44,576 bases of DNA from an uncultured Clostridia bacterium (lineage in GTDB: Bacteria; Bacillota; Clostridia; TANB77; CAG-508): NCBI GenBank assembly GCA_944389655.1, contig CALXND010000006.1:1-44576 (forward strand). The letters are read 5' to 3'. The position numbers and the translations under genes were made by a program. This document shows positions 8,409 to 24,038 of this stretch, in pieces (the stretch's first letter is position 1; each line of letters opens with the position of its first letter). The notes under the pieces are model-generated. The model saw only the letters and a program-made list of their open reading frames with translations, was not told where the DNA came from and did no database searches.

Positions 8409-8535
8409 TATTGTATTTTGATAATTAAGATTTAAAAGAAGATTAATATTAAAAATCGTAGATGAAATGTATAAATTAATAAAAATTGGTACATATTATC
8501 AATATAATTTAATAAATAAAGGAGAGTTGATAAAA

Positions 8536-9180
8536 ATGAGTGAACACCCAATAGAAGGACTGATGCTTACAGCTATGAATAGCATACAAGACATGGTTGA
8601 TGTAAATACAATTATAGGTGAACCGATTGAAACAAGCAATAATATGATAATAATTCCAATATCTAAGGTGGGATTTGGTTTTGCAGCAGGAGGTAGCGAA
8701 TTTAAAGGAGAGACAATAGATGAATATACCAAAAGAGAAAAAGAGGAACAAGTACAATATAGATTACCATTTGGTGGAGGAGCAGGAGCAGGAGTTAGCA
8801 TATCACCAGTAGCTTTTTTAGTGGTATCTCCAAATAATGTCAAGTTGTTACCAGTATGTCATTCATCAGCAGTTGATAAACTAATTGATTATGTACCAGA
8901 TTTAATGGAAAAAGTAAATTGCTATTTAAATAAATCTATGCAAAACAAAAAGGAAGAGAAAAAAGAACAAGCCAAAAGGCTTGATAGAGAACATAGAGAA
9001 ACAAAAGAAAGTATAGATAATTTGACAGAAACTATACAAAATGTTAATAGAATACGTCCAAGAAGAAGCAGAATGGGACATAGTCAACCAGTCAATAACA
9101 ATCCTATGCCGGCAGAAACAACAGATTATGAATACGAATATGACGAAACAGAAGACAAGAATGATTTTGAGGAAGAATAA
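8536..9180 (+). CDS. ytfJ: GerW/YtfJ-family sporulation protein
   Basis: A 214-residue protein with the GerW (YtfJ) core: HPIEGLMLTAMNSIQDMVDVNTIIGEPIE, then PISKVGFGFAAGGSEF, and PFGGGAGAGVSISPVAFLVV. In Bacillus it is made in the forespore and is needed for the spore's response to germinants. The C-terminal 70 residues are unusual: a charged coiled-coil-like stretch (NKKEEKKEQAKRLDREHRE) and an acidic Tyr/Glu tail, both longer than in the Bacillus protein. I use ATG 8536, with AAAGGAG at 8518-8524 upstream; the longer open frame from 8467 has no RBS. It follows the DUF2953 gene, a common pairing in spore-formers, and a terminator comes after it. Confidence 0.92.
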   Translation: MSEHPIEGLMLTAMNSIQDMVDVNTIIGEPIETSNNMIIIPISKVGFGFAAGGSEFKGETIDEYTKREKEEQVQYRLPFGGGAGAGVSISPVAFLVVSPNNVKLLPVCHSSAVDKLIDYVPDLMEKVNCYLNKSMQNKKEEKKEQAKRLDREHRETKESIDNLTETIQNVNRIRPRRSRMGHSQPVNNNPMPAETTDYEYEYDETEDKNDFEEE

Positions 9181-9429: not shown

Positions 9430-10062
9430 ATGAATAAAGAGCAATGGAAGAATTTAATAGAATGGATTATTTGTATAATAATAGCATTTATTCTAGCAAT
9501 TTTAATAAAGTATTTTATAGTAACACCAACGGTAGTAAGGCAATCGTCAATGTATCCGACATTAAAAGAAAATCAGCGATTAATTTTAAATAGATGGTCA
9601 AGAACCACCAAACAGATGCCTGAACGTGGGGATATAATTACGTTTGAAGCACCATCAGAAAAAGGAATTAGCGATGAGACATTTCAAACTCATATAGCTC
9701 AATACAAAAATAAAAGCAACAATTATTTGTATAATTTCTCTTACTATGTTTTAGAGATTAATAAAGAAAGTTATATAAAGAGAGTTATAGGCCTTCCAAA
9801 TGATAGAATTGAAATAAAAAACGGAAAAGTATTTATTAATGGAAATGAATATAGTGAGCCATATTTACAAGATACTGTAATTACCGATAGCAGAAATTCA
9901 TGTTTTGAAGACTTTATAGTTCCAGAAAATTGTATTTTTGCAATGGGAGATAATAGGGAAGGCTCTAAAGATTGTAGAGACTTTGGATGTATACCAATGG
10001 AAAAAATAGAAGGAATTGTTTTAATAAGATTTTGGCCACTTAATTTATTTGGAAAAGTATAA
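9430..10062 (+). CDS. lepB: Signal peptidase I
   Basis: A 210-residue type I signal peptidase. One N-terminal membrane helix (about residues 9-31) is followed by the catalytic serine S40 in QSSMYPTLK and the general base K117 in YIKRVIGLPNDRI. The C-terminal box MGDNREGSKDCRDFG is intact. The enzyme cleaves signal peptides from exported proteins on the outer face of the membrane. It has a short insertion with SDETFQTHIAQYKNKSNN between the serine and lysine regions. It has its own promoter; the RBS is GGAGATGAG. An unrelated hairpin repeat lies upstream. Confidence 0.95.
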   Translation: MNKEQWKNLIEWIICIIIAFILAILIKYFIVTPTVVRQSSMYPTLKENQRLILNRWSRTTKQMPERGDIITFEAPSEKGISDETFQTHIAQYKNKSNNYLYNFSYYVLEINKESYIKRVIGLPNDRIEIKNGKVFINGNEYSEPYLQDTVITDSRNSCFEDFIVPENCIFAMGDNREGSKDCRDFGCIPMEKIEGIVLIRFWPLNLFGKV

Positions 10063-10209
10063 AACTTGATAATACATAATTTTATTTGTATTTGTCATAT
10101 CAGTACTATACAAATAATTATATTAAAAAAGCAAAAAAATTAATTTGAAATTCACTAATTATTAATAATATAGTCTTGTACTTTCAACATTTTTTAAGTA
10201 CTAAAAGTA

Positions 10210-10257
10210 AAAGCTTTAAAATATAATGTTAATAAATTATATTTTAGAGCTTTTTTT
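10210..10257 (+). terminator. Strong stem-loop with T-run upstream of dacF
   Basis: An 18-base arm at 10210-10227 pairs with 10236-10253 with one G-T type mismatch, and the right arm runs into seven T residues (10251-10257). It ends lepB transcription. The dacF RBS (TAGGAGG) begins only a few bases after it, so it could also act as an attenuator for dacF. Confidence 0.7.
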
Positions 10258-10273
10258 AATGTAGGAGGGAAAT

Positions 10274-10774
10274 ATGATTTTAAAAAAGAAAAGTATAAAA
10301 ATAATTAGTTTTTCGCTTATATTTTTAGTGATTTTTATGTTTTCAGTGGTTTTAGCAAGTGACGAGTCGGTATATGTATGGTCATCGGAAGCTGAGCCTA
10401 TAACACAAGAGACAAGTGCAAATGAAACACAAGAGCAAGGAGTAGGAGAAAATAATAATAGTTTAAACTTAGAATCTGGTGGGGCTATACTAATAGAACA
10501 AAAGACAGGCAAAGTTCTATATGACCATAATATGCACGAACAGCTTAGGCCAGCAAGTGTTACGAAAGTTATGAGTTTACTATTAATTATGGAAGCATTA
10601 GACTCTGGTCAAATTTCTCTAACAGACAAAGTTCCTTGTTCCGAAGAAGCAGCTGGAATGGGAGGTTCACAGATTTGGCTTGAGGTTGGGGAGGAACTCA
10701 CTGTAGATGAAATGCTAAAAGCTATTTGTGTAGTTTCAGCAAATGACTGCACAGAACAATTCCGACACCTTTGA
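10274..10774 (+). pseudogene. dacF: D-alanyl-D-alanine carboxypeptidase, N-terminal part, interrupted by an integrated element
   Basis: A low-molecular-weight penicillin-binding protein (peptidase S11). It has a signal peptide (about residues 1-28, VVLA-SD), a linker, the active-site SxxK as S95-V-T-K98, and the SxN motif S155-A-N157. Homology ends at codon 160 (10751), where the frame enters the integrated element and stops after EQFRHL. The KTG motif and the rest of the enzyme lie at 23256-24038. The fragment alone lacks KTG and cannot be an active carboxypeptidase. Joining the two parts at the shared AC gives a 419-residue protein, close to Bacillus DacF/DacA. The enzyme trims the terminal D-Ala of peptidoglycan stem peptides; I use dacF loosely, since dacA-type roles are equally possible. 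Confidence 0.9.
10739..10768 (+). other. Left attachment junction (attL) of the integrated element
   Basis: The dacF sequence reads GCAAATGACTGC up to 10750, then AC at 10751-10752, then element sequence AGAACAATTCCGACAC. Comparison with the right junction shows AC is the only dinucleotide shared across the exchange point, so it is the likely crossover core of a serine recombinase. The element side carries GAACAATTCCGACAC (10754-10768), the inverted counterpart of a repeat at the right end. Confidence 0.8.
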
Positions 10775-10832
10775 AATACAACAGACAGTAGGATTTGAAA
10801 AATAAAAAAATATAAAATTATAAACACCTAAC

Positions 10833-10859
10833 AAAGAACTGCTTAGATAGCAGTTCTTT
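10833..10859 (+). terminator. Stem-loop near the left end of the element
   Basis: AAAGAACTGCT (10833-10843) pairs with AGCAGTTCTTT (10849-10859) around a 5-base loop. It would stop dacF transcription from running into the element. A second small hairpin (AAAAAGC/GCTTTTT) follows near 10915. Confidence 0.65.
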
Positions 10860-11021
10860 AATGTATTTTCTTAGATGTCTAACTGATATATAGGAAAATA
10901 ATGTGTATCTAGTAAAAAGCTACGCTTTTTAGCTGTTTTGAGGAGATGAGATATCTCACTGATCCTGCAAAATTGCTTTGAGGCAAATTTTGAATTGTAG
11001 ACTTAGAGAAGGAGTGAGTAT

Positions 11022-11483
11022 ATGAAAAAAGATAATGAAAAAGAAAAATTAGTACCAATTATAGTAAGATTACCAAAAGGAAAAAAAGAAATGTTAGAAA
11101 AATTAGCTAGTAAGCAAAGAAGATTTGAATCATATATTATTAGAAGCGGAATAGAAAAGAAATTGAATATTCAAATGTATAAAGATAATTTAGATTTTAT
11201 AATTAAAGAATTAGATAGAATGTTAGATGCGAAATTATCACCATTTATAAAATCACAAAGAAAAATAAATGCAAAATATTTAAGAACAAGTGCCATAAAT
11301 ACATATTTATTAGGAGAATTTTTTAATAAAATATTAGGAGATAATATGCATAAGAATTTCATAAAAATGTTAAATAATGCTCGTAGCAAAGCTAATTATT
11401 ATATTAATCGTGATACCGAGAATATGACTAAAGAGGACTTATATGATTTTTACACAATAGGAGAAATATATAGAAATGAATAA
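11022..11483 (+). CDS. Ribbon-helix-helix-like element protein (possible mobilisation accessory)
   Basis: A 153-residue basic protein. The first 50 residues (LVPIIVRLPKGKKEMLEKLA followed by ESYIIRSGIEKKL) fit a beta-strand, helix, helix pattern as in ribbon-helix-helix DNA-binding proteins, including MobC-like mobilisation factors and plasmid repressors. The rest is helical and charged and I do not recognise it. It is the leftmost gene of the element, with a good RBS (AAGGAG) before ATG, and is followed by a 676-base stretch without clear genes that holds hairpins. Position and fold suggest a regulator of excision or a relaxosome accessory protein; that is inference. Confidence 0.6.
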   Translation: MKKDNEKEKLVPIIVRLPKGKKEMLEKLASKQRRFESYIIRSGIEKKLNIQMYKDNLDFIIKELDRMLDAKLSPFIKSQRKINAKYLRTSAINTYLLGEFFNKILGDNMHKNFIKMLNNARSKANYYINRDTENMTKEDLYDFYTIGEIYRNE

Positions 11484-12050
11484 AATATTTAAAAATAAAA
11501 AAACTAAAAATTGAATTTAAAAACTAAAAATTCTAGTTACTAAATAATAGTGCTAGAGTTTTTTATTACATATAAAGAGAAACGAGAGATGCCACAAACT
11601 CGTTATAAAACAAAAAGAGATAGGTTTGATGAGCCGACGCAATAAAATTCATTCGTATTAGTGCAAACAGTCTATTTGCACTAAATGCGTAAGTGAGATT
11701 TCGTAACGTAAACTCACAATAAACAAAGAGTTTTAGGAGGCAAAACTTGTAATAATGGATATGCAAATGTAAGAGAAACTTCAAAAAAATTTATAGAATG
11801 TTTTTCTTATTATTTTTGAAGTACTATAACATTTCAAAAGTAATAAAAAGTGTGGGCAAGTATGCACAAGGTTTAAATATGACGGCATTTGCAGTAGATA
11901 TAGTATCTACATACTAGACTATCATAAAAATAAAAAGCGACGAAATGAGGGGTTTAACTAGATGGTGTATTATTTATCTGAAAAAGGGGATAATACACCA
12001 TTTTTTGGCTCAAAAATTTTAGGGTTTATGAATTAATTTTTAATAAAATG
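11484..12050. other. Non-coding region of the element with hairpins and remnants
   Basis: No convincing gene. A perfect 10-bp stem TTAGTGCAAA (11658-11667) / TTTGCACTAA (11675-11684) is followed by a GTGAG...CTCAC palindrome near 11693-11718, a layout seen at origins of transfer or regulatory sites. A TAGGAGG at 11734-11740 precedes only tiny frames. A 39-codon frame at 11798-11917 starts with FFLLFLKYYNISKV; it lacks an RBS and I could not match it to a family. The region looks like the decayed core of a former mobilisation or replication module. Confidence 0.4.
11966..12009 (+). terminator. Terminator before the cargo operon
   Basis: TGGTGTATTAT (11966-11976) pairs perfectly with ATAATACACCA (11993-12003), followed by six T residues. 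It isolates the cargo operon from upstream transcription. Confidence 0.75.
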
Positions 12051-12079
12051 TTTACATAAATATAAAAATATGGTAAAAT
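12051..12079 (+). promoter_or_regulatory. Promoter of the cargo operon
   Basis: TTTACA at 12051-12056, a 17-base spacer and TAAAAT at 12074-12079, between the preceding terminator and the first cargo gene, about 80 bases before its ATG. No other good promoter was seen within the operon. Confidence 0.6.
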
Positions 12080-12159
12080 AATTATTGTAGGTAAATAATA
12101 ACTAATTTATTAAAATTTTATTACAAAATAACAAATTAAAAAAATATATAAGGAGAAAA

Positions 12160-12894
12160 ATGAATTTAAAAGAAAAAACAGTTATCATAACAGGCGGTGC
12201 TAAAGGAATTGGTAAAGCTATTGCATTGGAATTATTAAAGGAAAAATGCAGAGTAATTATCTTAGATATTGATAAAATAGAAGGAAGAAAATTACAAAAT
12301 GATTTAAATGATATGATTAAATTTATTAATATTAATATCTCAAAAGAAGAACAAGTGAAAAAAGCTTGTGATTATATAATAAATAAGTATAAAAAAATAG
12401 ATATATTAATTAATAATGCAGCTAAGCAGACTGAAAATGAATTCTTTAAAATGTCAGTGAAAGAATTTAGAGAGATAATTGATACTAATTTAGTAGGAAC
12501 CTTTATATGTAGTAGTATTTTTGGAAAATTTATGAAAAGTGGAAGCAAAATTATAAATATGCTTTCAGAACATTACAATAAACCAAGAAAAAACAAATAT
12601 CATTATGACGCGTCAAAAGCAGGAATTGCTATGCTTACACAAGAAATGGCGTTAGAATTAGCGGATAAAGGAATAACCGTTAATGGAATTTCTTATGGAG
12701 CTTGCAATACACCAATGAATTCAAACTGGATAGATAATGAAGATATAGTAAATAGCACATTAAAGAAGATTCCTTTAAAATGGATAGCAGAGCCAGAAGA
12801 GATAGCAAGATTTACCGCAGTGATCTTAAAAGAATTTAGTGATTATGCGACAGGTAGTATCTTTAATATAGATGGCGGAAGGAGTTTGAGTTAG
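12160..12894 (+). CDS. Short-chain dehydrogenase/reductase (cargo gene 1)
   Basis: A complete 244-residue classical SDR. The cofactor-binding TGGAKGIGKA lies at the N-terminus, followed by INNAA, the catalytic serine in INMLSEH and the catalytic YDASK (Y-x3-K). The C-terminus FNIDGGRSLS is typical of 3-oxoacyl-ACP-reductase-like members. An acidic residue after the second strand (LDIDK) points to NAD(H) rather than NADP(H). It oxidises or reduces an alcohol/ketone; the substrate is unknown. It is the first gene of the operon, with AAGGAG before ATG, and the next gene starts on the base after its stop codon. Confidence 0.9.
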   Translation: MNLKEKTVIITGGAKGIGKAIALELLKEKCRVIILDIDKIEGRKLQNDLNDMIKFININISKEEQVKKACDYIINKYKKIDILINNAAKQTENEFFKMSVKEFREIIDTNLVGTFICSSIFGKFMKSGSKIINMLSEHYNKPRKNKYHYDASKAGIAMLTQEMALELADKGITVNGISYGACNTPMNSNWIDNEDIVNSTLKKIPLKWIAEPEEIARFTAVILKEFSDYATGSIFNIDGGRSLS

Positions 12895-13380
12895 TTGGAA
12901 TATTGGGATGTTTTTGATGAAAATATGAATAAAACTGGAAGAATTATTAATTATAAAGAAAAATTAAAAATAGGAGAATATCATCTGTCGATACATTTAT
13001 GGATAGAGAATACAGATAAAAGATATCTTATACAGAAAAGAGAAAAAACAATGAGAGTATTTCCTGACATGTGGTCTATTGTTACAGGAGGAGTTATGTC
13101 AGGAGAAAGTGGAATGGATGCAGTAATAAGAGAAGCTAAAGAAGAAATAGGAATAGATCTAAAAAAAGAGTATTTAGATAAATTAGGAATAGTAAAAAGA
13201 GAGTATGATTTCGTCGAAGTATGGAAAGCAACAGATAATATTAGTTTAAACAATTTGATATTACAGGCGAATGAAGTAAGTGAAGTGAAATTATTTTCAA
13301 AGTCTGAAATAAAGTGTATGATAAAAAAAGGACTAATGGCCCAGAGTATAATAGATGAATTTGATAAATATATTTGGTAA
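12895..13380 (+). CDS. Nudix hydrolase (cargo gene 2)
   Basis: A 161-residue Nudix protein of the YfcD / IPP-isomerase-like group: it begins WDVFDENMNKTGR, has a strand ending in YLIQKRE, and a full Nudix box from GGVMSGESG to REAKEEIGI. Enzymes of this group act on small pyrophosphates or isomerise isopentenyl diphosphate; which applies cannot be said. Its start is a TTG directly after the stop codon of the dehydrogenase gene, with AAGGAG 10 bases upstream inside that gene, so the two are probably translationally coupled. The kinase gene follows after 13 bases. Confidence 0.88.
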   Translation: MEYWDVFDENMNKTGRIINYKEKLKIGEYHLSIHLWIENTDKRYLIQKREKTMRVFPDMWSIVTGGVMSGESGMDAVIREAKEEIGIDLKKEYLDKLGIVKREYDFVEVWKATDNISLNNLILQANEVSEVKLFSKSEIKCMIKKGLMAQSIIDEFDKYIW

Positions 13381-13393
13381 AGTTGGAGGAAAA

Positions 13394-14527
13394 ATGGAAA
13401 TAACAGAATTATCAGAAAAAGATATAAAAGCAATTCTAAAAACAAATCAATATATCATTAAAAATATAAATTTTCAAAATAATTCAATTAATGGTTCTAC
13501 GATAAAAAACAAAATAAAATATTTTTTTAAAATTATGTCATCAGAAAGATGTAAGCAAGAAATAGAAGGGTATTCAAGTATTAAAGCAGAATATCCTGTA
13601 CCTAGATTAGTAGAATATATAGAATGTACTGATACAGGAATATTGATATATGAATATGTTAATGCAATAAAAAATAATCAAGGTTTATTACATGACTATA
13701 TTTTAAAATGTGAAGCAAAAAATACATATACTTCAGATGTAGTAAAAAAAATATTTCAATATTATGATAAATCTTTAAAAAAAATATGCAGAGTAAATTC
13801 GTTTCCTATGGAGGAATTTTACAAAAAAAGAATAAATACACGATTACTAAACTGGTATAAAGATTGGGAAATAAATGAATATAAAATCATTATAAATGAA
13901 ACCATTAATATAAATTTAAAAGAAATAATAGGGACTCTTGAAAATTTTTTTGAAATGCCAAAGACATATGAAGCTTTTTTATCACAGGGGGATCCTAATA
14001 CCGTTAATATAGGTATAAAACCAATATTTATGGATTTAACAACAGCAGGTTATAATTATATAGAAGCAGAGATAGCAGCATTTATGTGGTCAGAATTAAT
14101 TGCGGATGCATATTTTTGCCCAAAATATCATGCTAAATCTTATAAATACCATGAACAGATTTTATGTTTATATGATAATTATAAGCCTAATTTGAAGTAT
14201 TCAATAAACAGAGATAAGAAAACAATAAAAATAGATGGTAATTTAAAAATAAGTAAAATTAGAAAGAAAATTTTAAATGAGTATTTAAGGATTTTTATGA
14301 AAAACAATATCGTTGTAGGAGAAGAACTAAAATATTATATAGTAATGAGAATACTGTGTATTTTTAACATAAGAGAAATGGAAGAAATAGATACCATATA
14401 TTCTCTTTTTTGTGTAGGTATGTTCTTAAAATTAGAAGCAAAAGGAAAAAATATATTAAGTAATATTGAATTAATGATAGAAAATTATTCGGAGGATGTG
14501 AAAATAGGACATGGAGAGACAGTTTAA
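13394..14527 (+). CDS. APH/choline-kinase-fold phosphotransferase (cargo gene 3)
   Basis: A 377-residue protein with the small-molecule kinase fold. The N-lobe carries a candidate ATP-binding lysine in KYFFKIM and a glutamate in CKQEIEGY. The hinge region is IYEYVNA. The catalytic loop is SQGDPNTVN (D200, N205), the counterpart of HGDxxxxN, with Gln in place of His. The metal-binding aspartate is D214 in FMDLTTAG. The C-lobe is long and helical. It probably phosphorylates a sugar, amino alcohol or similar hydroxyl; aminoglycoside resistance cannot be excluded but the context argues for metabolism. I chose ATG 13394 because GGAGG lies just before it; an in-frame upstream ATG at 13355 lies inside the Nudix gene. 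Its end overlaps the next gene by 17 bases. Confidence 0.75.
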   Translation: MEITELSEKDIKAILKTNQYIIKNINFQNNSINGSTIKNKIKYFFKIMSSERCKQEIEGYSSIKAEYPVPRLVEYIECTDTGILIYEYVNAIKNNQGLLHDYILKCEAKNTYTSDVVKKIFQYYDKSLKKICRVNSFPMEEFYKKRINTRLLNWYKDWEINEYKIIINETININLKEIIGTLENFFEMPKTYEAFLSQGDPNTVNIGIKPIFMDLTTAGYNYIEAEIAAFMWSELIADAYFCPKYHAKSYKYHEQILCLYDNYKPNLKYSINRDKKTIKIDGNLKISKIRKKILNEYLRIFMKNNIVVGEELKYYIVMRILCIFNIREMEEIDTIYSLFCVGMFLKLEAKGKNILSNIELMIENYSEDVKIGHGETV

Positions 14528-15653
14528 AGATTATAAAACTTTTTTTGACCTAGGGATAAAAGATGAAGAAGATTCAGACAGAATATTTGCAACATTATTT
14601 TGTATAATGGGCGGAACCCATAAAAAAAGAAGCGATAATAATAAGCTGATACTGAAATATTTAAGGGGAGAAAATTTAACAGATGAGGAAAAGAGAAAAT
14701 GTGCAGATATATTAAGTGGAAAAATTTATAAAGATATAAAAGCCGAATATGAGCATTGTCAGTTATGTTCTGATAATTTTGTGAGAGATGTATTAGAAAA
14801 TCTTTCAAGAAAATATAAACATTGGGAAATATGTTGTCCGACACATCCATATACTCCAGCAGGGCTAATGATATATTTAAAAAATAGAAAAGATAGTAAG
14901 ATTGAAAACATACAAGATTTAAATGAAGAACAATTTACAGAAATACAGTTAATAATAACTGAAATATATGAAAAATTAAATAACAGATTAGGCAATATTA
15001 ACATTGTGGGAATAAATGTATTATTTAATCAAATATCAAAATCACAATTATGCATACACGGACATATGGAATTTATGATAAAAGATGTTCAAAATCAAAA
15101 ACTAGGTTGTACTTTAAAAGAGAAAAGACCAAAAGACATAATGGTATATAAGCTAAATGAACAAATTGATAATAGAGATGGATTATTGAAGACACAAGAA
15201 GGTATAAGAATTGATTTAAGTAGAATTAGTATAATTGAAGCGTTACAAATAGTTAGCGATTATGAAAAAAATATAGGAAAGGTAATTGCGTATGGAAAAA
15301 AAATAAGAGAAAGCGGAATATTAAAAGAGCCTGTAGATGAAATATTATTAAGATATTTGAGCCCAGCACCACAAAATTATATATATTTAACTTATTATAG
15401 GGATAAAATGTTCCTTTCTTGTGTGCCAGAGTTGATTTTAGAAAGAGCAGACATCCATAAAATAGATGAAAAAGATGAATGTGAATTATATTCATTAAAA
15501 ATAAATCAAGATGCTGTATACACAGAAGATATGCTATTAAACCAAGAATCTCCAATAGTCAGACCTAGTATTAAAACTAAGAAAACAACAAAAGATGACC
15601 AAAACGTAGAAAGGTTAAGAAATAAAATAGTAGATGTATTAGAAAGAAAGTAA
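14511..15653 (+). CDS. GalT/HIT-superfamily nucleotidyl transferase-like protein (cargo gene 4)
   Basis: A 380-residue protein with features of galactose-1-phosphate uridylyltransferase and the HIT superfamily. A zinc-type pair C83-x2-C86 (CQLC) is followed by CCPTHPYTPAG around H112. The active-site region runs from GINVLFNQ to IHGHMEF, with H183 and H185 in the positions of the GalT zinc and nucleophile histidines. GalT enzymes move an NMP from a nucleotide sugar onto a sugar phosphate through a His-NMP intermediate. The C-terminal 150 residues are not recognisable and are divergent from GalE-linked GalT. It overlaps the kinase gene upstream and sits one base before the next gene. A role in nucleotidylating the kinase product is inferred. 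Confidence 0.65.
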   Translation: MERQFKDYKTFFDLGIKDEEDSDRIFATLFCIMGGTHKKRSDNNKLILKYLRGENLTDEEKRKCADILSGKIYKDIKAEYEHCQLCSDNFVRDVLENLSRKYKHWEICCPTHPYTPAGLMIYLKNRKDSKIENIQDLNEEQFTEIQLIITEIYEKLNNRLGNINIVGINVLFNQISKSQLCIHGHMEFMIKDVQNQKLGCTLKEKRPKDIMVYKLNEQIDNRDGLLKTQEGIRIDLSRISIIEALQIVSDYEKNIGKVIAYGKKIRESGILKEPVDEILLRYLSPAPQNYIYLTYYRDKMFLSCVPELILERADIHKIDEKDECELYSLKINQDAVYTEDMLLNQESPIVRPSIKTKKTTKDDQNVERLRNKIVDVLERK

Positions 15654-15654
15654 G

Positions 15655-17142
15655 ATGAGGAATTTTTTTATTATTAATGAGGACTTGAATAACGAAAATT
15701 TAAGTGGAAAAAGAAAAAAACTTGATATAAAGTCTGCTTTTTCTATAGAATGTGGATTATTAGGAGAAGAATTTTTTTATAAAGTATTAAACTCAAAAAA
15801 AATAGCAGAAAGATATGACGGTGATTACATTGAACTCTGGAAAAAATATTATAGAGCGATTAAACAATATGTAGACTTAACAGATTTCTGTGGTATAATT
15901 GAGACAGATTCTGGAGAAATTATAGAGATATCAAAATGCATATCAAAAGAGAAAATGATAGAAGGCACTCCAATTGAATGGAAAAAATTTTATGAGATAT
16001 ATTTAAAGATACTAAGAGAAATTAATTCATTAGTAAAACATTATAATGGTAAAGTCGGAATGGACACATCTATATGGAATTTTACAATAAATGGAGAGCT
16101 ATTTGATTTAGACCCACCTAGATTATTTAAGGGAAAAGAATCTGTTTTCTCTAATAAAGAAGATAAAGGACATTATGAGCGAACATTTTATAGAAATTTT
16201 ACAGAAGAAGGAATGAAAACAAACTTATTAGCTACAATTTTATTAGGATTAAATAAAGGAAATATTATAGTAAATAATAAGGACACTAATTATATTGAAA
16301 GACTATTAGAAGGATTAATAAATAGCTTTGATGAACAAGAAATAATAAAGAAAAAATTATTTTGTAATGATAATCAATTTTATGGTTTTGAAAATCATCC
16401 GATAAAGATTATTAGAGATTTTATTCAAAAAAATAAGGAGGAAAATAAGAGTATGAAAGAAGAAAGAAAACAAAAATTTATATTTGTAACAGGCCCATCA
16501 GAGTCTGGAAAAAGTGGAGCTGTTATACATATGACAAGAAAATTTCCAGGAGAGGTAAAACATTTAAAAATAAGAAATATATTTAGAGAAATGTATGAAA
16601 GAACAAACAAAGAAATGAGCTATGAAGATTGGTATCAAGAGCAAACAACAGAAAAATTTGAAGAATTTTGGGATAATTATATTAAAACTGCTAAAGACTT
16701 AGGAGAAGGTGCAGATATAGTTGTTATGGATACATTATATGGAGTTAATGAAATAAAATTTTTACACAGTAGATTAGGAAAAAATGTAGGCTTATTGTAT
16801 ATAGATGCACCATTACAAGATAGAATTACAAGGGAATATACAAGATTGAGAACAGATTCTCCCTATTCGGATAGAAAGGCAGATTTAACAGTTACATGGG
16901 AACAAATTGAAGAACAAACAAAAAGAAAGGATGAGAAAAAGAAAAAGGCAGGTGCATTTGATTTAAAAAGATTAGCAATAAATGAAAATGGTAAGTTAGA
17001 GATAAATGATAATGCACTAGTTCATTTTGCAGATGTTATTAACAATGATGGTACTTTAGAGGAATTTGAAAACAAACTTGACAAGTTCATTAGTAAAGAA
17101 TTACAAATAATAAGAAGAGAGAGAGAATATGAAGGAAGATAA
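15655..17142 (+). CDS. Two-domain protein: kinase-like domain plus P-loop nucleotide kinase (cargo gene 5)
   Basis: A 495-residue fusion. Residues 1-260 look like a divergent APH-type fold: GMDTSIWNF (D137, N142) resembles the catalytic loop, and FDLDPPR (D151, D153) resembles the metal site. Residues 267-495 form a P-loop kinase: Walker A GPSESGKS (280-287), a Walker B-like IVVMDTL, a basic LID-like RITREYTRLRTDSP, and an ending (ADVINNDGTLEEF) as in dephospho-CoA and UMP/CMP kinases. An internal RBS (AAGGAGG at 16435-16441) precedes ATG 16453 (M267), exactly at the domain boundary, so the P-loop kinase may also be made alone. The second half is a close paralogue of the next gene, which overlaps it by 14 bases. 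The substrate is unknown. Confidence 0.7.
   Translation: MRNFFIINEDLNNENLSGKRKKLDIKSAFSIECGLLGEEFFYKVLNSKKIAERYDGDYIELWKKYYRAIKQYVDLTDFCGIIETDSGEIIEISKCISKEKMIEGTPIEWKKFYEIYLKILREINSLVKHYNGKVGMDTSIWNFTINGELFDLDPPRLFKGKESVFSNKEDKGHYERTFYRNFTEEGMKTNLLATILLGLNKGNIIVNNKDTNYIERLLEGLINSFDEQEIIKKKLFCNDNQFYGFENHPIKIIRDFIQKNKEENKSMKEERKQKFIFVTGPSESGKSGAVIHMTRKFPGEVKHLKIRNIFREMYERTNKEMSYEDWYQEQTTEKFEEFWDNYIKTAKDLGEGADIVVMDTLYGVNEIKFLHSRLGKNVGLLYIDAPLQDRITREYTRLRTDSPYSDRKADLTVTWEQIEEQTKRKDEKKKKAGAFDLKRLAINENGKLEINDNALVHFADVINNDGTLEEFENKLDKFISKELQIIRREREYEGR
16435..16455 (+). promoter_or_regulatory. Internal ribosome binding site and ATG within cargo gene 5
   Basis: AAGGAGG at 16435-16441 is followed 11 bases later by ATG 16453 in the same frame. 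Initiation here would give a free 229-residue P-loop kinase starting MKEERKQKFIF, closely like the start of the next gene (MKEDKKYIFI). The spacing is a little long. Confidence 0.5.
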
Positions 17143-17722
17143 AAAATATATTTTTATAACTGGAAAGTCTGAGTCTGGAAAAAGTATGATTTCTGAATAT
17201 ATCTCAAAAAAATATAAAGGAGCAATACATATAAAAATGCGAGATATAATAAAAGAAATGTATAAAGAATATGATACAAAATTATCATATGAAGAATGGC
17301 AAGAAGAATTAGAAAACAATCAAAGAGAATTTTTTTGGAAAACATATATAAATATGGCTAATAAGATTGCCAAAGGACATAATTTAATCGTTATGGATAC
17401 TTTGCGAAAAAAAGAAACATTAGAAGTAATTAATAAACTAGCTGGTAACAATATAATGCTATTATATATTGATGCTAAGCTTGAATCTAGAGTTAATAGA
17501 GAATATAATAGATTAAATAAAGAAGATAATATTAGCTATGAGCAAATTAAATTAAATACATTAAAAAAAGATAAGGAAAAAGAACAATATGGCTTAATTC
17601 AAATCCTAAATTATATAAAAGAAGGTAAAATGAAACATGGTTATATTATATATAATAACGGAACAATAGAAGATTTTAAAAAGAGTATTGATGATAAAAT
17701 AGAAATATTTTTAGGAGATTAA
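17129..17722 (+). CDS. P-loop nucleotide kinase-like protein (cargo gene 6)
   Basis: A 197-residue P-loop kinase. Walker A is GKSESGKS at residues 12-19, followed by IHIKMRDIIKEMY, then LIVMDTL (Walker B-like) and RVNREYNRLNKED (LID-like). It ends YIIYNNGTIEDFKKSID, like the C-terminus of NMP or dephospho-CoA kinases. It is clearly a paralogue of residues 267-495 of the preceding gene, with the same motif order but a shorter LID and C-terminal region. The two genes overlap by 14 bases, so the tandem pair likely arose by duplication and may form a heterodimer or act in two consecutive phosphorylation steps. The phosphate acceptor is unknown. Confidence 0.78.
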   Translation: MKEDKKYIFITGKSESGKSMISEYISKKYKGAIHIKMRDIIKEMYKEYDTKLSYEEWQEELENNQREFFWKTYINMANKIAKGHNLIVMDTLRKKETLEVINKLAGNNIMLLYIDAKLESRVNREYNRLNKEDNISYEQIKLNTLKKDKEKEQYGLIQILNYIKEGKMKHGYIIYNNGTIEDFKKSIDDKIEIFLGD

Positions 17723-17723
17723 T

Positions 17724-18434
17724 ATGTTTAATATTATAAAAATTGATGAATTAAATGTATGTGATTCATATAAAGAAAATATAATGATATTTTATAAAGA
17801 AATAAAAAATATATTAAAAGACAAATTGATGTTATTTATGGTTACAGGAAGCGTAGGTATAGGAAAGATACATGATGGTTGGAGTGATATAGATATATTA
17901 ATAGTAACTAAATCTTATATAATTGATGATATAAAAAAAATTCAAGAAGTAATAAGAAGATTATCTGATATAAAAATAGGTACAACTATTTATTCACAAA
18001 AAGAATTTGAAAGTAACATGATTGATGGTAAAACTATGTATTCACTATTAAACTTATATCGTAATAATTTACATTTAAATTATTATAATACAGATTTGAA
18101 AATACCAGCAGTAACTTTAGACATGATGAAACAAAAACATCTAGCACTATTACCTGATTATGTGCATAAATTAAAAAGATTAGTATATATAAATAAATAT
18201 GACAAAAAAACGATAATCAAAACAATGAATTTAATTATGAAAATATATGTAGTACAGAAGAATATTATTCCAAAAGAATATAAAGATGTATTTAGCAAGT
18301 TTTCATATTTATATAATTTTAAAGAATTTGATATTTTAAAAGAATTAAATTTAAATGATATATCAAAAGAATTTGAGGACTATTTAAAAAAATTTATTGA
18401 ATTTATTTCAAATAATAAATTACTGATAGCATAA
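17724..18434 (+). CDS. Pol-beta-type nucleotidyltransferase (cargo gene 7)
   Basis: A 236-residue protein with the minimal nucleotidyltransferase signature: G42-S43 in VTGSVGIG, then SDIDILI with D55 and D57 as metal ligands. After the catalytic domain come TTIYSQKEF and a helical C-terminal half rich in Lys and Tyr (HKLKRLVYINKYDKKT). The architecture resembles aminoglycoside or other small-molecule nucleotidyltransferases, which transfer AMP or another NMP to a hydroxyl or phosphate. MNT toxin-antitoxin enzymes are smaller, and no HEPN partner is present. It starts one base after the stop of the preceding kinase gene, with TAGGAG upstream of ATG. Confidence 0.78.
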   Translation: MFNIIKIDELNVCDSYKENIMIFYKEIKNILKDKLMLFMVTGSVGIGKIHDGWSDIDILIVTKSYIIDDIKKIQEVIRRLSDIKIGTTIYSQKEFESNMIDGKTMYSLLNLYRNNLHLNYYNTDLKIPAVTLDMMKQKHLALLPDYVHKLKRLVYINKYDKKTIIKTMNLIMKIYVVQKNIIPKEYKDVFSKFSYLYNFKEFDILKELNLNDISKEFEDYLKKFIEFISNNKLLIA

Positions 18435-18457
18435 AAAACATATAAGAAAGAAGAATT

Positions 18458-19135
18458 ATGAATATTTTTGTATCAACCTATAATAATAATAAAAAAGTAT
18501 ATAAATTGGATGTAAATAGTAGAGGAGTAATTAGTGTAATAAAAGAAGTAACAATGAATAACTACATATCTTACATTTATAGATTTCACTCTAAAATTGC
18601 TATCGCTTTAAAAAAGTCATCTGAAGAAAATAAAGCAGGTATTGCACTATTAAATAAAAATTTAGAATGTGAATATGAGTACAAAAATGATAGTTCATAT
18701 ACACACATCTATATTGATAAAAAATATATAATTGCAGCTAGCTATCATGACAGCAATATATTGATAATAAATCAGAGAAATAAGCAAAATAATTTAATAA
18801 AAATAGAAAAATCAAAAATACATAATGTTGGAAAATTATTTAAAGAACTTTATTATGCTGTTGATCTTGCACAAAGTAAAATATATATATTTAAAATAAA
18901 TGGAATTAAGTATGAATTACAGAATGAAATAATATTAGATAAACAAGAACAACCAAGACATTTAATATGCTATAAAAGAAATATATACATTTTATGCGAA
19001 AATACCTCGAAGATAATAAATTTTGAATACAAAGATGGGAAATTTATATGTGTCCAAGAAATTACTACACTTAATTTAAAGGATAGAATTATAAATATGT
19101 CATCAGCAAAAAGAAAGAAAAAATTTATTTGTTAA
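18458..19135 (+). pseudogene. Lactonase-like beta-propeller protein, C-terminally truncated (cargo gene 8)
   Basis: A 225-residue protein resembling the first part of the YbhE-type 6-phosphogluconolactonase / cytochrome-like propeller family (PF10282). Repeated blades are visible: THIYIDKKYIIAASYHDSN, then HNVGKLF...YYAVDLAQSKIYIF, and QPRHLICYKRNIYILCEN. Full-length members are about 340 residues; this one ends within a blade after QEITTLNLKDRI and a run of lysines (KRKKKFIC). A shift to the next frame leads into a different gene fragment, so the 3' end has been lost by deletion or frameshift. It starts 23 bases after the nucleotidyltransferase gene. If still made, it is probably inactive; the intact ancestor would have hydrolysed a lactone. 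Confidence 0.6.
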
Positions 19136-19136
19136 A

Positions 19137-19329
19137 AGAAGTAATATTTATGCAATTCTTATGAAATTAATAGAAAAACTACCCAAAAGTTATAGATATA
19201 GGGCAATTGATAAAATAGAGGAATATGCTGAAATAATAGATGAAGAAAATTCAGCATATATGGAAAAATATTATGAAGCTCGGATTTAAAGATGCAATAA
19301 AACTTATAACACAATGCCAAAATAAGTAA
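19137..19329 (+). pseudogene. Remnant of a small element protein (DUF6809-like)
   Basis: Shifting frame after the propeller stop gives a continuous segment containing MKLIEKLPKSYRYRA, IDKIEEYAEIIDEENSAY and, after one further shift near 19281, GFKDAIKLITQC followed by a stop. It resembles the C-terminal half of DUF6809-like proteins, which are often found beside site-specific recombinase genes in clostridial elements. It has two frame changes and no start of its own with an RBS. The resemblance is from memory and moderate. Confidence 0.4.
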
Positions 19330-19354
19330 AATTAAAACAAAATACATACTAAAA

Positions 19355-19398
19355 AATAAGAATATTATCAAAAATAAAGATAATATTCTTATTTTTTT
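19355..19398 (+). terminator. Terminator of the cargo operon
   Basis: AATAAGAATATTATC (19355-19369) pairs perfectly with GATAATATTCTTATT (19379-19393), and the right arm runs into a T-run (19392-19398). A standard intrinsic terminator closing the 12160-19135 operon. Confidence 0.85.
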
Positions 19399-19787
19399 GA
19401 AAAATTTTAAATTTTTTATAAAAATGAGAAAAATTAGACCTTTTATGGACTTTTATAAGTAGATATATGTAAAAAATACAGTCAGCAATAACAAAAATTT
19501 AAAAAAATATCAAAAAATGACATGTTTCTAAAATTTTATGAACTTATATATAGAGATATGAAATAAGTGAAATAAAAAAGTAGAGTAAAAACTCTATAAG
19601 TTTTGTCATGCATAAAAAGTGTTAGTAAAAAATTGCAAATAAAATTAACTGGCAATTAGTAAGAAAATTGAAAGAGATTCAGAAGTATCTGAATATAAAA
19701 TATAACTTTCCAAAAAAAGTATTTAAATATCTTTTGTAATAAAAAGAAGATTTGTACATAGTTATTTATTATGAGGTGAGACAAGAT
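19399..19787. other. AT-rich gap before the recombinase module
   Basis: No gene seen in about 390 bases. Two imperfect direct repeats of the form TTTTATG-ACTT-TATA...AGATATATG occur near 19440-19468 and 19535-19561, and a small hairpin TAGAGT/ACTCTA lies near 19582. These could be binding sites for a recombinase or regulator; I see no clear promoter consensus. Confidence 0.35.
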
Positions 19788-19934
19788 ATGGAGACTAAAA
19801 ATAAAATAGAATCTACAAATGATAATGCAAACAATTCTGAACTAAAGTTTTCTGTTAAGTTCAAAGAAGATGGAGAAAGTTTTCAAAGTATAATGGAGAA
19901 AATCTTGATAAACAAGATAAATAAAAACACTTAA
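19788..19934 (+). CDS. TnpW-like small transposon protein
   Basis: A 48-residue protein (start METKNKIEST). A polar N-terminus is followed by LKFSVKFKEDGESFQSIMEKILINKI, which fits the end of TnpW-type small proteins encoded just before TnpX/TndX serine recombinases in clostridial transposons (a strand region, then a helix). Its role there is not established. I chose ATG 19788 because GAGGTGAG lies just before it; a longer in-frame start at 19752 lacks an RBS. It is followed after 69 bases by the first recombinase gene. Confidence 0.6.
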   Translation: METKNKIESTNDNANNSELKFSVKFKEDGESFQSIMEKILINKINKNT

Positions 19935-20003
19935 AACTATTGAAATAGAACTTATTCAGAGTTATAACACATATATGGTGTTTATAATAGTTAGGAGGCT
20001 ACT

Positions 20004-21644
20004 TTGAACATAGAAAAAAATATAGAATATAGTGTGGCAATTTATATTCGTTTAAGTAAAGAGGATGGTGATAAAGAAGAAAGCGAAAGTGTTACTAATC
20101 AAAGAAAAATTTTGAGAGCTTTTGCAGAAGAAAATCATTATAGAATTTATGACGAATATGTAGATGATGGATATACTGGTACAAACTTTAATAGACCAGA
20201 TTTTAAAAGGATGATAAATGATATAGAGAATAAAAAAGTAAACATGGTCATTACAAAAAGTTTATCAAGATTAGGAAGAGATTATATTGAAACTGGTAGG
20301 TACATAGAAAAATATTTCCCTGAAAATAATATTAGGTATATAGCTGTATTAGATGACGTGGATACTTTTCTTGATAAAAACTGTGATACAGTTGCATTAA
20401 AAAATATTTTTAATGATTTTTTTGCAAAAGAAACTTCTAAAAATGTAAAGAGAACAAAAAACAAAAAGAAAAAGGAAGGATTCTATTACATTACATATGC
20501 ACCTTTTGGATATAAAAAAGTAAGTAAATCTGGAAGAATTGAAATAGACGAGGTACAATCAAAAATAGTAAGAATGATATTTGATTTATTTATTGGAGGT
20601 AAAGGTACATATCAAATTGCTAAAGAATTGAACAATTTAAAAATAAATCCACCAGGTTTACAAATGAAAATGGCAAATGTATTGAAAAATACAACAGATA
20701 CTACAAATAAGTGGAGTCATAATACTGTTAGAAGAATTTTAGAAAATAAAAGTTATATTGGAAATTGTGTGCAAAATAAAACTAAAAAAATTAGTTATAA
20801 AAGTAAAAAAATAATTTCGTTATCTGAAGAAGAACATACTATTACAGAAAATCATCATGAGGCAATAATTGATTTAGATAAGTTTAATCTAGTACAGAAA
20901 ATACTAGCAAATCATAAGAATGATAAAGTGCGAGACACCGATGTTTTATTAAAAGGAATATTATATTGTAGCCATTGCAATAATAAATTAGTTATTAGGA
21001 CAAAAACAGATAAAACAAAAAGTGGAGAAAAAATAAGAAGATATATATACTGCCAAACTGCAAATAAAGAATTTTCAAACAAAAAATGTTATAAGAAGTA
21101 TATTAATTATGATAAATTTGAAAAGGAGACTTTGGATAAAATAACAGAAATATTAAATATGTACATAAATTCAAATGCTTTCAAAAATGAAGATGCTTTA
21201 AAAAAATTATTAGAATCGCAAGAAAGCAAATATACTATTGATAATAAAATAAAGAAATTAAATAAAGATTTAGAAAATATAAATAAAAAAATAAGCATGG
21301 CATATAGTGATAGACTAAATGGAATATTAGAAGAGCAAGACTTTAAACTATTTTCTGCAGGACTAATTAATGAAAGAAAAAGAATTGAAAGCTTAACTTA
21401 TGAATTAAAGAATCAAATAAAAGATTTCAGTGAAAATAAGATGAGTGAAACCATTAAATTTGATATGAAAAAAATAATAGAGAATCTTTTAAAAAATAAA
21501 TTATATACAAAGGAAGTGTTGAATCAATTAGTTAATAGAATAGAAGTAGATAAAAACAATAATGTAATAATATATTTTAATTTCCACGAATTAAATTGCA
21601 TGAAGGATGTGATAGAAAATGTCAAACAAGCAGTTAATTTATAA
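20004..21644 (+). CDS. Large serine recombinase 1
   Basis: A 546-residue large serine recombinase of the TndX/TnpX type. The resolvase domain carries the nucleophile S18 in YIRLSKEDGD, plus SVTNQRKIL, YVDDGYTGTNFNRP and the arginines in SLSRLGRDYIETGRY. A recombinase domain follows (APFGYKK...RRILENKSYIGN), then a zinc-ribbon (CSHCNNKLVIR...KKCYKKYINY) and a coiled-coil-rich C-terminus (RIESLTYELKNQI). It starts at TTG 20004 with TTAGGAGG six bases upstream. It catalyses strand exchange at attachment sites and is the best candidate for integration and excision of this element. It appears intact. Its end overlaps the second recombinase gene by 26 bases, so they are co-translated. Confidence 0.93.
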   Translation: MNIEKNIEYSVAIYIRLSKEDGDKEESESVTNQRKILRAFAEENHYRIYDEYVDDGYTGTNFNRPDFKRMINDIENKKVNMVITKSLSRLGRDYIETGRYIEKYFPENNIRYIAVLDDVDTFLDKNCDTVALKNIFNDFFAKETSKNVKRTKNKKKKEGFYYITYAPFGYKKVSKSGRIEIDEVQSKIVRMIFDLFIGGKGTYQIAKELNNLKINPPGLQMKMANVLKNTTDTTNKWSHNTVRRILENKSYIGNCVQNKTKKISYKSKKIISLSEEEHTITENHHEAIIDLDKFNLVQKILANHKNDKVRDTDVLLKGILYCSHCNNKLVIRTKTDKTKSGEKIRRYIYCQTANKEFSNKKCYKKYINYDKFEKETLDKITEILNMYINSNAFKNEDALKKLLESQESKYTIDNKIKKLNKDLENINKKISMAYSDRLNGILEEQDFKLFSAGLINERKRIESLTYELKNQIKDFSENKMSETIKFDMKKIIENLLKNKLYTKEVLNQLVNRIEVDKNNNVIIYFNFHELNCMKDVIENVKQAVNL

Positions 21645-23001
21645 TGTAGGAATGTATTTAAGGTTAAGTAAAGAAGATGGAGATGGGGAAAGCGAAAGTA
21701 TTACAAACCAAAGAAAAATAATTAAAGAATATATTGACAAACATTATAATATGAATTTGTACGATGAATATGTAGATGATGGATATAGTGGAGCTAATTT
21801 TAATAGACCAAATTTTAGAAGAATGATTTCAGATGTTGAAAATAAAAAAATAAATATGATTATAACTAAAAATCTTGCTAGATTTGGAAGAGATTATATA
21901 GAAACAGGTTATTACATAGAAAAACTTTTTCCAGACTATAATGTCAGATATATTGCTATTTTAGATGATGTAGATAATTTCGTAGATAGTATAAGCAACG
22001 ACTTCATGCCAATTAAATCTGTGATAAATGAAAAACATTGCAAGGACACATCAATCGCAGTAAAAAAGAGCAAAAGAAGAAAGATGAAAGATGGATTTTA
22101 TGCTTGTACAATACCACCTTTTGGATATAAAAAGGATCCTGAAAATCAAGGAAAGCTTATAATAGATGAAGGAAGTTCCAAAACAGTAAAAAAAATATTT
22201 GAGTTAAAAGAAAACGGATATACAATAAATCAAATAGTAGATTATCTAGGCGAAAATAATTACATGACACCTGCAGAGTATATGAAAATAAAAGGGCTTG
22301 AAAACATAGATAATAAGGATATATGGAAAGCAAGTTCTGTAAAAAGAATTTTATGTAACAAAGTTTATCTAGGCTATTGTTTAAGAGGAAAAACACAAAA
22401 AATAAGTTATAAATCTAATAATAGAATTTATGTAAAAAGAAGTGACTATATTTGTATTAAGAATTCACATGAAGCTATAATAGATGAAGAAACTTTTGCT
22501 AATGTACATAATAATAGTAAATATGGATTAATTGGAATCACAAAAGATTATAAATATCTTCTTAAAGATTTAATTTATTGCAGAGAATGTGGGAAAAAAC
22601 TTATTTTTAAGAAACGAAGAAATGATGCAGAAGTATATTGCAGACAAAATGCAGAAAATAATAAGTTATGTTCTAATAATTGTAAAATAAAATATTCTAA
22701 TTTAGAAAACAAAACATTTTTTTATTTAGAAGAAATGTATAGAATGTATTTGAATTCTTCAAAAGCTAAGGACAAGTTATATAAAGATATTATTATAGAT
22801 AAAATTAAGAATATAGAAAGTAACAAAAAACAATTAGAAAGAGAAATTTCATCTATAAGTTTTAAAATATCAAATTTATATAATAAGAGATTATCAGAAG
22901 AAATTAATGAAAAAAATTATAAGGAACAATATGAAGAATTATCTAATTATCGAAAAAAACTACAATGTGAAATTAATAATATTGAAGAAAAACTTCGGTG
23001 A
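21619..23001 (+). CDS. Large serine recombinase 2, C-terminal frameshift
   Basis: A 460-residue paralogue of recombinase 1. S17 in YLRLSKEDGD is the nucleophile; it has SITNQRKII, YVDDGYSGANFNRP, LARFGRDYIETGYY, a recombinase domain (PPFGYKKDPENQGK) and a zinc ribbon (CRECGKKLIFKKR...CSNNCKIKYSN). The frame stops at 23001 after IEEKLR. A one-base shift near 22990, in a run of five A residues, opens a frame to 23176 encoding GEERNKLDSLSHRNEILNKL and ISIRELIDKIEIYK, which matches the expected end of such a protein. So the original was about 518 residues and this copy has lost its last 60. The catalytic part is intact, so partial function is possible. Its ATG lies within the end of recombinase 1. 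Confidence 0.85.
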   Translation: MSNKQLIYNVGMYLRLSKEDGDGESESITNQRKIIKEYIDKHYNMNLYDEYVDDGYSGANFNRPNFRRMISDVENKKINMIITKNLARFGRDYIETGYYIEKLFPDYNVRYIAILDDVDNFVDSISNDFMPIKSVINEKHCKDTSIAVKKSKRRKMKDGFYACTIPPFGYKKDPENQGKLIIDEGSSKTVKKIFELKENGYTINQIVDYLGENNYMTPAEYMKIKGLENIDNKDIWKASSVKRILCNKVYLGYCLRGKTQKISYKSNNRIYVKRSDYICIKNSHEAIIDEETFANVHNNSKYGLIGITKDYKYLLKDLIYCRECGKKLIFKKRRNDAEVYCRQNAENNKLCSNNCKIKYSNLENKTFFYLEEMYRMYLNSSKAKDKLYKDIIIDKIKNIESNKKQLEREISSISFKISNLYNKRLSEEINEKNYKEQYEELSNYRKKLQCEINNIEEKLR

Positions 23002-23227
23002 AGAAAGAAACAAATTAGATTCTTTAAGTCATAGAAACGAAATATTAAATAAATTGAAGAAGATTGAGCAGAAAGATTTTAATAATATAAGTATTAGAGA
23101 ATTGATAGATAAAATAGAAATTTATAAAACAGATATAGATATACAATTTAAATTTTCTAAATTAGAACAAACATAATTTAAATAAGTAAATGGCTATAAA
23201 AATAGTCGAAAAAAATTTAAAAATTTA

Positions 23228-23270
23228 GTGTCTGAATTGTACTGGATAAGACTGTACTGTGGCAATGGCA
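23228..23270 (+). other. Right attachment junction (attR) and terminal inverted repeat
   Basis: Element sequence GTGTCTGAATTGTAC (23228-23242) is the inverted counterpart of 10754-10768 (13 of 15 positions). After TGGATAAGACTGT comes AC (23256-23257), then dacF sequence TGTGGCAATGGCAG. The inferred circular junction would contain CTGT-AC-AG, a short palindrome; the inferred empty site reads GACTGC-AC-TGTGGC. Confidence 0.8.
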
Positions 23271-24038
23271 GAATATTTATGTGGTAGTCAAGAAGCATTT
23301 GTACAAAAAATGAACGAAAAAGCAAAAGAGCTTGGAATGAATGACACAACATTCAAGAATTGTCATGGAATAGACGAGGATGGCCATGTAACATCAGCTT
23401 ATGATATAGCACTAATGTCAAGAGAACTTTTAAATAATCATCCTAGTATTTTAAATTACACGACAATCTGGATGGATACTTTAAGAGATGGGCAATCTGA
23501 ACTTGTAAATACAAATAAATTAATTAGAAACTATAAAGGAGCTACAGGCTTAAAAACAGGGTCTACATCAGTAGCACTTTACAATTTGTCAGCAAGTGCA
23601 ACCAGGGACGGCTTGTCATTAATAGCTGTAATTATGAAAGCACCATCAACAAAAATACGTTTTTCAGAAACACAAAAATTATTAGATTATGGATTTAGCA
23701 ATTATGAATATAAAGATTTAGGAACAAAAGGAGCAGTACTTACAGAAGCTAATATAACAAAAGGTGTAAATTCAACTGTAAATCTCATATTAGAAAGTGA
23801 TGTAGGTATATTAATAAAAAAAGGTGAAGATAAAAATATAAATCAAACTATAAACATGCAAGAAGATATCATAGCGCCAATAACCGCAGGACAAAAAGTA
23901 GGAGAAATTATATATACATTGAATGGCGAAGAAATAGGAAGAACAAATATAGTGACAGAGAAAAGCGTTGAAAAGAAAACATTCTTTAGCATAGCTTCAT
24001 ATGTATACCAAAAATGGTTTACAATGCTAAGAACTTAG
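23256..24038 (+). pseudogene. dacF: D-alanyl-D-alanine carboxypeptidase, C-terminal part
   Basis: This is the continuation of the gene begun at 10274. The reading frame resumes with VAMAEYLCGS, the usual continuation after SAND in this family, then GMNDTTFKNCHGIDEDGHVTSAYD in two steps. The KTG motif is in GLKTGST (residue 259 of the restored protein). The C-terminal beta-rich domain and an amphipathic tail (FFSIASYVYQKWF) that would bind the membrane follow. There is no RBS before the first possible start (GTG 23259), and without SxxK it would be inactive. It can only work if the element is excised or if a second intact copy exists. The frame itself is clean, with no decay visible after the interruption. 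Confidence 0.9.

Follow-up and report, generated by a model that had tools for sequence, protein, structure and literature searches.

The 44,576-nucleotide contig CALXND010000006.1 of an uncultured Clostridia bacterium (hereafter the window, meaning the whole stretch analysed) carries an insert of 12,505 bp that interrupts a D,D-carboxypeptidase (dac) gene at the Asp codon 3′ of the SxN motif. We propose that the insert is a gin-like island without recognisable phage genes, that its large serine recombinases (LSRs) probably placed it there, and that its excision would rejoin dac, probably as a timed event in spore formation. We see even chances that this proposal is correct in full. The island's genes and att sites, both halves of dac, and the ytfJ and signal peptidase genes all lie on the forward strand.

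The 5′ half of dac (10274–10774), which contains the SxxK and SxN motifs and is extended by a short tail from the element before a stop codon, matches positions 8–108 of the Pfam profile Peptidase_S11. The 3′ half (23252–24038), which contains the KTG motif, matches positions 110–238 followed by the PBP5_C domain; the two halves cover consecutive parts of the profile. When the flanks are joined, an in-frame protein of 419 residues is obtained in which SxxK, SxN and KTG are all read. A first reading of the window made from its letters (the sequence-only reading) had proposed that an element of about 12.5 kb splits a carboxypeptidase gene and that its removal restores the frame and a 419-residue protein with these three motifs; both halves were found where it had placed them, and a near-identical uninterrupted protein exists. 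This protein, P0001 (419 residues), was found among the best 120 matches in a search of a protein collection and differs from the joined protein at one residue. It comprises four member sequences and one 1,589-bp contig, with a source column that reads "-" and does not show its provenance, and it probably comes from the same species as the window. The truncated window protein, P0121, was found on 25 contigs and P0001 on one, so interrupted and uninterrupted forms of dac both exist; the latter may have arisen by excision or come from strains that never carried the island. In the integrated state the enzyme ends shortly after SxN and is predicted to be inactive. An assembly artefact joining unrelated contigs would also produce a split gene, and the window is one contig of an 85-contig assembly, but the same junctions are present independently in two other genomes (on a 39-kb contig of G004 and a 124-kb contig of G017), and the 25 contigs with P0121 carry the truncated protein together with the element tail, which makes an artefact extremely improbable.

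Both ends of the element share GACTG[C/T]AC, an 8-base match that alone leaves the crossover position open. The attP site was rebuilt from the ends of eight elements (the window, G004, G017, G013, L047, L050, L055 and L074). In 8/8 the rebuilt site is a dyad centred on the dinucleotide GA, the strongest of 31 offsets, with 15–21 of 26 positions of the inverted repeat matched; shuffled sequences were as good as the real dyad in 0/5000 trials for seven elements and in 4/5000 for L050. The crossover is thus best placed at GA, at 10745–10746 in attL and 23250–23251 in attR. The left half of attP (10747–10776) is conserved in G004 and G017, and a 28-base pattern spanning this junction is present in 5/30 genomes of the genus; the right half (23220–23249) is its inverted partner, with 16/26 matches and 0/5000 shuffles as good. 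The rejoined flanks read in frame through SxND in all eight elements. The sequence-only reading had put the crossover at AC. This position was rejected, the dyad being best six bases to its left in 8/8 elements; the rebuilt protein is the same for either crossover because TGC and TGT both encode Cys.

An island is present at this dac codon in 7 of 30 same-genus genomes, which goes beyond a single chance insertion. In 18 others, relatives of the kind that the sequence-only reading had proposed to look for, the gene reads through the site; one is frameshifted, and four (G005, G007, G011 and G022, 63–93% complete) have no orthologue-level match. A window-type left end was found at the codon in G000, G004, G016, G017 and G024. 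A second island lineage, with an LSR1 57% identical to that of the window, is present in G013 and G014; in G014 the right junction was seen and the left junction is unassembled. Two contigs of G014, C43 and C92, break at the att site, and the last 9 bases of C43 beyond the core are native-like; such breaks would be expected from a sample that contains occupied and empty forms side by side. A close relative, G015, has an empty site that aligns with the joined G017 flanks over 1,360 bp with no gaps and 88 differences. At L043 (G018:C4:17000-21561), in a genome without an island at the site, the frame of dac shifts a few bases short of the att core. Among 120 matches listed of 2,151 proteins similar in length to the truncated one, 43 have the window-type tail, 5 a variant of it, 28 SAND[C/Y]xVQ, 21 the native continuation and 23 some other ending.

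The genome contigs contain eight loci in which tandem recombinases have as their neighbour one half of the dac orthologue, with this codon as its first or last (L046–L048, L050–L052, L055 and L057, three of which are G017, G013 and G014). Four further loci adjoin a more distant Peptidase_S11 gene. Fragments at three of them (L058, L067 and L074) end at profile positions 109–110, the window's own split point, and the SxND crossover could be rebuilt for L074; the fragment at the fourth, L059, loses its frame earlier, at position 73. The recombinases of L047, L050, L055 and L074 are oriented oppositely relative to dac. Site-specific insertion is well supported.

The sequence-only reading had noted that the element carries large serine recombinases, and two were matched by Pfam. 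LSR1 (20004–21644, 546 residues) is full length, with Resolvase, Recombinase and Zn_ribbon_recom matches and a YIRLS motif whose Ser we take to be the catalytic residue. LSR2 (21619–23001, 460 residues) matches Resolvase and Recombinase, with Zn_ribbon just below cut-off; its C-terminal end is out of frame, and the remainder lies in another frame at 22907–23176. The same frame change and 460-residue length occur in G017, as compared with 518 residues in G004.

Comparison of the window, G004 and G017 shows that the island travels. Nucleotide identities are 92.6–97.8% for ORF153 (an open reading frame, ORF, of 153 codons at the left end), 95.9–98.9% for LSR1 and 95.3–96.4% for LSR2, as against 73.0–78.1% for the 5′ half of dac and 78.8–79.8% for its 3′ half. 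The ends are constant, with ORF153 on the left and a small ORF, LSR1 and LSR2 on the right. The cargo between them is not the same: the window has dehydrogenase, NUDIX and kinase-like genes, G004 has a UvrD-type helicase, and the ORFs of G017, read by eye, resemble a pair of DNA methyltransferases, a DpnII-like nuclease and an OLD-like ATPase. Because the recombinases are far more alike than the gene they split and the cargo differs, the islands move horizontally, and the island is a platform whose cargo can be exchanged. The idea of a skin-like element inherited vertically was rejected, since the island genes are far more alike than the host genes. The sequence-only reading had left a choice between a recent insertion and a programmed rearrangement; the former holds in the form of repeated, site-specific horizontal insertion, and the latter stays alive, unproven.

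Horizontal movement and differing cargo are equally what would be seen if this were a plain site-specific mobile cargo island, similar in logic to the staphylococcal cassette chromosome (SCC), with dac serving as attB and excision occurring at random or on transfer, with no developmental link. This explanation is a strong contender to which we give somewhat less than an even chance. The conserved codons of a catalytic motif would make dac usable as attB, and paralogues would let hosts tolerate its loss: the window's genome has two further Peptidase_S11 genes, and 4/30 genomes of the genus lack the orthologue-level match. A second intact dacF copy had been named in the sequence-only reading as a point that would count against it; the two genes are there, but they are just 31–34% identical to the 3′ half of dac. 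A preference for one conserved coding site is known from other large serine recombinases (PMC10083194), and the promoter scan gave no sporulation promoter (see below). The little decay seen in the split gene and the genes that adjoin related recombinases, both described next, argue against an island of this plain kind.

Decay was assessed at sites invariant in 18 intact reference genes. Occupied 5′ halves from six genomes have 0/56 changes at such sites, and occupied 3′ halves from four genomes 0–1/116, the single change being the window's; when intact same-genus genes were each left out in turn (16 of the 18), they had 0–1 (5′) and 0–2 (3′) changes. The claim in the sequence-only reading that both halves are free of decay is borne out to this extent, the window's 0/56 and 1/116 falling within the intact range, and the occupied copies in related genomes, where decay would have spoken against it, show little sign of it. 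Relative-rate counts are even, with the exception of the 3′ half of G013. If the insertion were a dead end, with dac lost for good in this lineage, it would account for the shortened LSR2, the window's one invariant-site change, a G013 3′ half that evolves faster than the nearest intact relative, and the finding of the truncated protein on 25 contigs versus one for the uninterrupted form. An order-level relative, L147 (G038:C13:131000-141500), could be read in the same way: it keeps a dac 5′ half with an attL-like tail and has a complete second dac downstream, with no recombinase match in the stretch fetched, and is possibly a remnant with its replacement. We nevertheless consider a dead end unlikely, since the near-identical uninterrupted protein exists, LSR1 and both att sites look intact, and the other occupied copies have no invariant-site changes.

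The genes beside related recombinases provide an indication of a link to sporulation. The best 80 of 135 recombinase relatives were surveyed for the gene fragment adjoining the last recombinase; seven loci had no readable fragment and L070, whose fragment is a recombinase, was dropped. Among the 72 readable loci, many of which have a single recombinase, 31 have a fragment of CwlD (12), Peptidase_S11 (11), glycoside hydrolase family 18 (GH18; 5), PdaB (1), SpoVAD (1) or SpoVB (1). Fragments were chosen by hand instead of the longest ORF at L058, L084 and L097 and in addition to it at L124, which is counted twice among the 73 fragments; without the hand-chosen fragments the tally is 27/72. CwlD or Dac fragments adjoin 23/72 loci, compared with at most 1/57 control fragments per family taken 5 kb away. 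The control list gives 25 of 258 families, none of the spore families among them, so each spore family is bounded at ≤1/57 and is not proven to be zero. The enrichment of CwlD plus Dac, computed with 0/57 controls, gives P = 2.5e-7, a value that overstates independence because the loci are related.

For the neighbours other than dac (CwlD, PdaB, SpoVAD, SpoVB and GH18), the recombinase-side half was examined. CwlD fragments start at the first conserved motif or extend to near the C-terminal end. Tandem recombinases adjoin a cwlD fragment lying just downstream at L064, L065, L066, L072 and L076, the fragment of L066 lacking the first 11 profile positions, and three adjacent recombinases adjoin the C-terminal end of cwlD at L083, L093, L100, L105, L109 and L110. 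The PdaB (L098:11499-12170), SpoVB (L124:9148-9372) and SpoVAD (L085:3758-4171) fragments each adjoin recombinases. All five GH18 fragments match PF00704 and are presumably YaaH/SleL-like; the one tested against NCBIfam, from L106, had no match there. Those of L086, L094, L097 and L106 start at the same profile position (211–212), which suggests one shared insertion site. The fragment of L102 appeared PdaB-like by eye, matched neither NCBIfam nor Pfam, and was left out of the counts. At L054 and L056, the neighbour of the tandem recombinases is an asparagine synthase gene, which they adjoin at its 3′ end.

We tentatively suggest, while leaning towards doubt, that Clostridia harbour a large clade of non-viral islands, each with one adjacent LSR or up to three, whose speciality is to split genes of spore peptidoglycan or spore maturation (dac, cwlD, pdaB, sleL/yaaH-like GH18 genes, spoVAD and spoVB). 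The split in dac and cwlD would fall at codons of a catalytic motif or next to them, and the genes would be rejoined in the mother cell during sporulation. The cwlD gene of C. difficile is controlled by sigma-E (PMC3789822). The sporulation genes listed in PMC3533761 include cwlD, dacB, spoVAD and the spoVB family.

Programmed excision of the window's island is unproven; it is kept in consideration by the sporulation, spore-cortex and Dac genes near recombinase relatives, by the little decay of dac, and by features of the host. As the sequence-only reading had stated, the host has sporulation genes; its genome contains Spo0A and SpoIVA. The dac gene starts 1.1 kb after ytfJ/gerW (8467–9180; TIGR02874 spore_ytfJ above cut-off and Pfam Spore_YtfJ). 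With dac scored as present if its 5′ half matches at E ≤ 1e-30, YtfJ is absent from 6/56 genomes, all six of which also lack this dac, and dac is absent from 5/50 genomes with YtfJ (Fisher P 1.4e-5, confounded by linkage and kinship).

Several observations weigh against programmed excision. The joined protein matched no spore-specific family model, and this dac is a sporulation gene by presumption. The dacF gene of C. difficile is controlled by sigma-G, and CD2141, a further D-Ala-D-Ala carboxypeptidase gene, by sigma-F, both forespore factors (PMC3789822), whereas nearly every intervening element known so far occupies a mother-cell gene (PMC6957869). No strict sigma-E/F/G/K consensus was found upstream of dac, ORF153, the small ORF or LSR1, in a scan that has little power because no sigma-A site was found either. 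The excision and circular junctions that the sequence-only reading had proposed to look for did not appear in the assemblies searched, there being no circular (attP) junction in the 30 genus genomes or in IMG/VR (0 stretches). LSR2 may be impaired in the window and G017, given its shortening relative to G004. The four genus genomes without the dac match and the one frameshifted at the site count on the same side. Some relaxation of selection is possible, given the window's one invariant-site change and the 3′ half of G013, which has 9 occupied-specific changes versus 1 in the nearest intact relative. The horizontal spread suggests that the insertions are all young; the intactness of the halves is then a poor guide to selection and was not accepted as proof of function.

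If the island is nonetheless excised as proposed, LSR1, perhaps together with LSR2, would recombine attP with an attB formed by the conserved SxN-Asp codons, the recombinase cutting at the GA dinucleotide. With a directionality factor, recombination of attL with attR would yield uninterrupted dac and a circular island. The candidate for this factor is a small conserved protein encoded directly upstream of LSR1 (19752–19934), put forward from its position and from similar small ORFs that occupy the same position in four other islands (G004, G017, G013 and G014) and, as judged by eye, in L047. It matched no Pfam family; a suspected TnpW-like identity gained no support from Pfam. By analogy with gin in gerE, excision would occur in the sporulating mother cell. 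If, moreover, the wider recombinase clade repeatedly inserts into spore-wall genes and rejoins them, developmental DNA rearrangement would be a common lifestyle of non-viral islands, which would help to explain how they persist in spore-forming bacteria; many uncultured bacteria would need programmed DNA excision to build their spore wall, and exchangeable cargo would pass from species to species on the islands. The occupied and empty sites form natural pairs whose att sequences are defined, a set suited to direct tests, and the att pairs could serve as site-specific integration tools.

The remaining genes of the island and its surroundings are as follows. No phage family and no relaxase or transfer genes were found by Pfam among the 13 island ORFs (E ≤ 0.001). 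ORF153 (11022–11483), conserved in the three islands, encodes a 153-residue protein of unknown function with a relative, 53% identical, in the CwlD-abutting island L066. The cargo comprises a short-chain dehydrogenase (12160–12894, adh_short), a NUDIX hydrolase (12895–13380, PF00293), three larger ORFs without a clear family (13355–14527, 14511–15653 and 15655–17142, the last with a single RNA_helicase match at cut-off), a P-loop kinase-like protein (17129–17722, AAA_18 above cut-off), a nucleotidyltransferase-like protein (17724–18434, NTP_transf_2) and a beta-propeller, lactonase-like protein (18458–19135, PF10282). A defence role for this cargo was considered and set aside, PADLOC giving weak matches for 2/6 proteins and none for 4/6; the helicase of the G004 island matches GajB models. 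A signal peptidase gene (9430–10062, Peptidase_S26) lies between ytfJ and dac. The main feature of an alignment of sequences upstream of dac is an apparent terminator-like hairpin, seen by eye at 10200–10275 in the window and in relatives, in several of which it overlaps the dac ribosome-binding site. Transposase-like ORFs, also read by eye, lie near the left end of the window (466–1862).

Among known systems, SCC has its insertion site at the end of rlmH, a gene that stays functional, and its cargo is exchangeable. Exchangeable cargo is common to SCC and the window's island, whereas the latter interrupts the dac enzyme between catalytic motifs. A further likeness is the adjacent LSR pair, at 20004–21644 and 21619–23001 here and ccrA/ccrB in SCC (PMC5595907). 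The island also resembles the LSR elements described in PMC10083194, in which diverse recombinases converge on one conserved coding site; the target classes named there include competence genes, a magnesium chelatase/protease and a prolyl isomerase, and the words "carboxypeptidase" and "amidase" do not occur in its main text. Among the matches listed from open-licence PubMed Central, no title or abstract opening reports an element that splits dac, cwlD or pdaB.

Programmed excision has been demonstrated for few sporulation genes in the literature cited here. As with skin (sigK), SPbeta (spsM), vfbin (spoVFB), yin (yabG) and phi3T (kamA), the insertion lies inside a gene that excision would rejoin and has its own site-specific recombinase, but those elements are prophages or prophage-like and have different target genes (PMC10747680, PMC6957869). 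The closest counterpart is gin, which sits in gerE of Bacillus cereus ATCC10987, is non-viral and mobile, and is excised during sporulation, two of its three recombinases being dispensable (PMC5595907). The target of gin is a regulator gene and its sporulation-timed excision was shown by experiment, whereas the window's island splits a peptidoglycan enzyme, has two tandem LSRs beside attR and variable cargo, and would be timed to sporulation by analogy. The two are alike in being non-viral, in carrying several LSRs, in splitting a coding sequence that is restored in frame, in horizontal mobility, and in an inverted repeat around a central dinucleotide (PMC5595907). We would not file the island as a proven sporulation-intervening element, the sporulation role of its target and timed excision being presumed; in its manner of working, it appears to be like gin.

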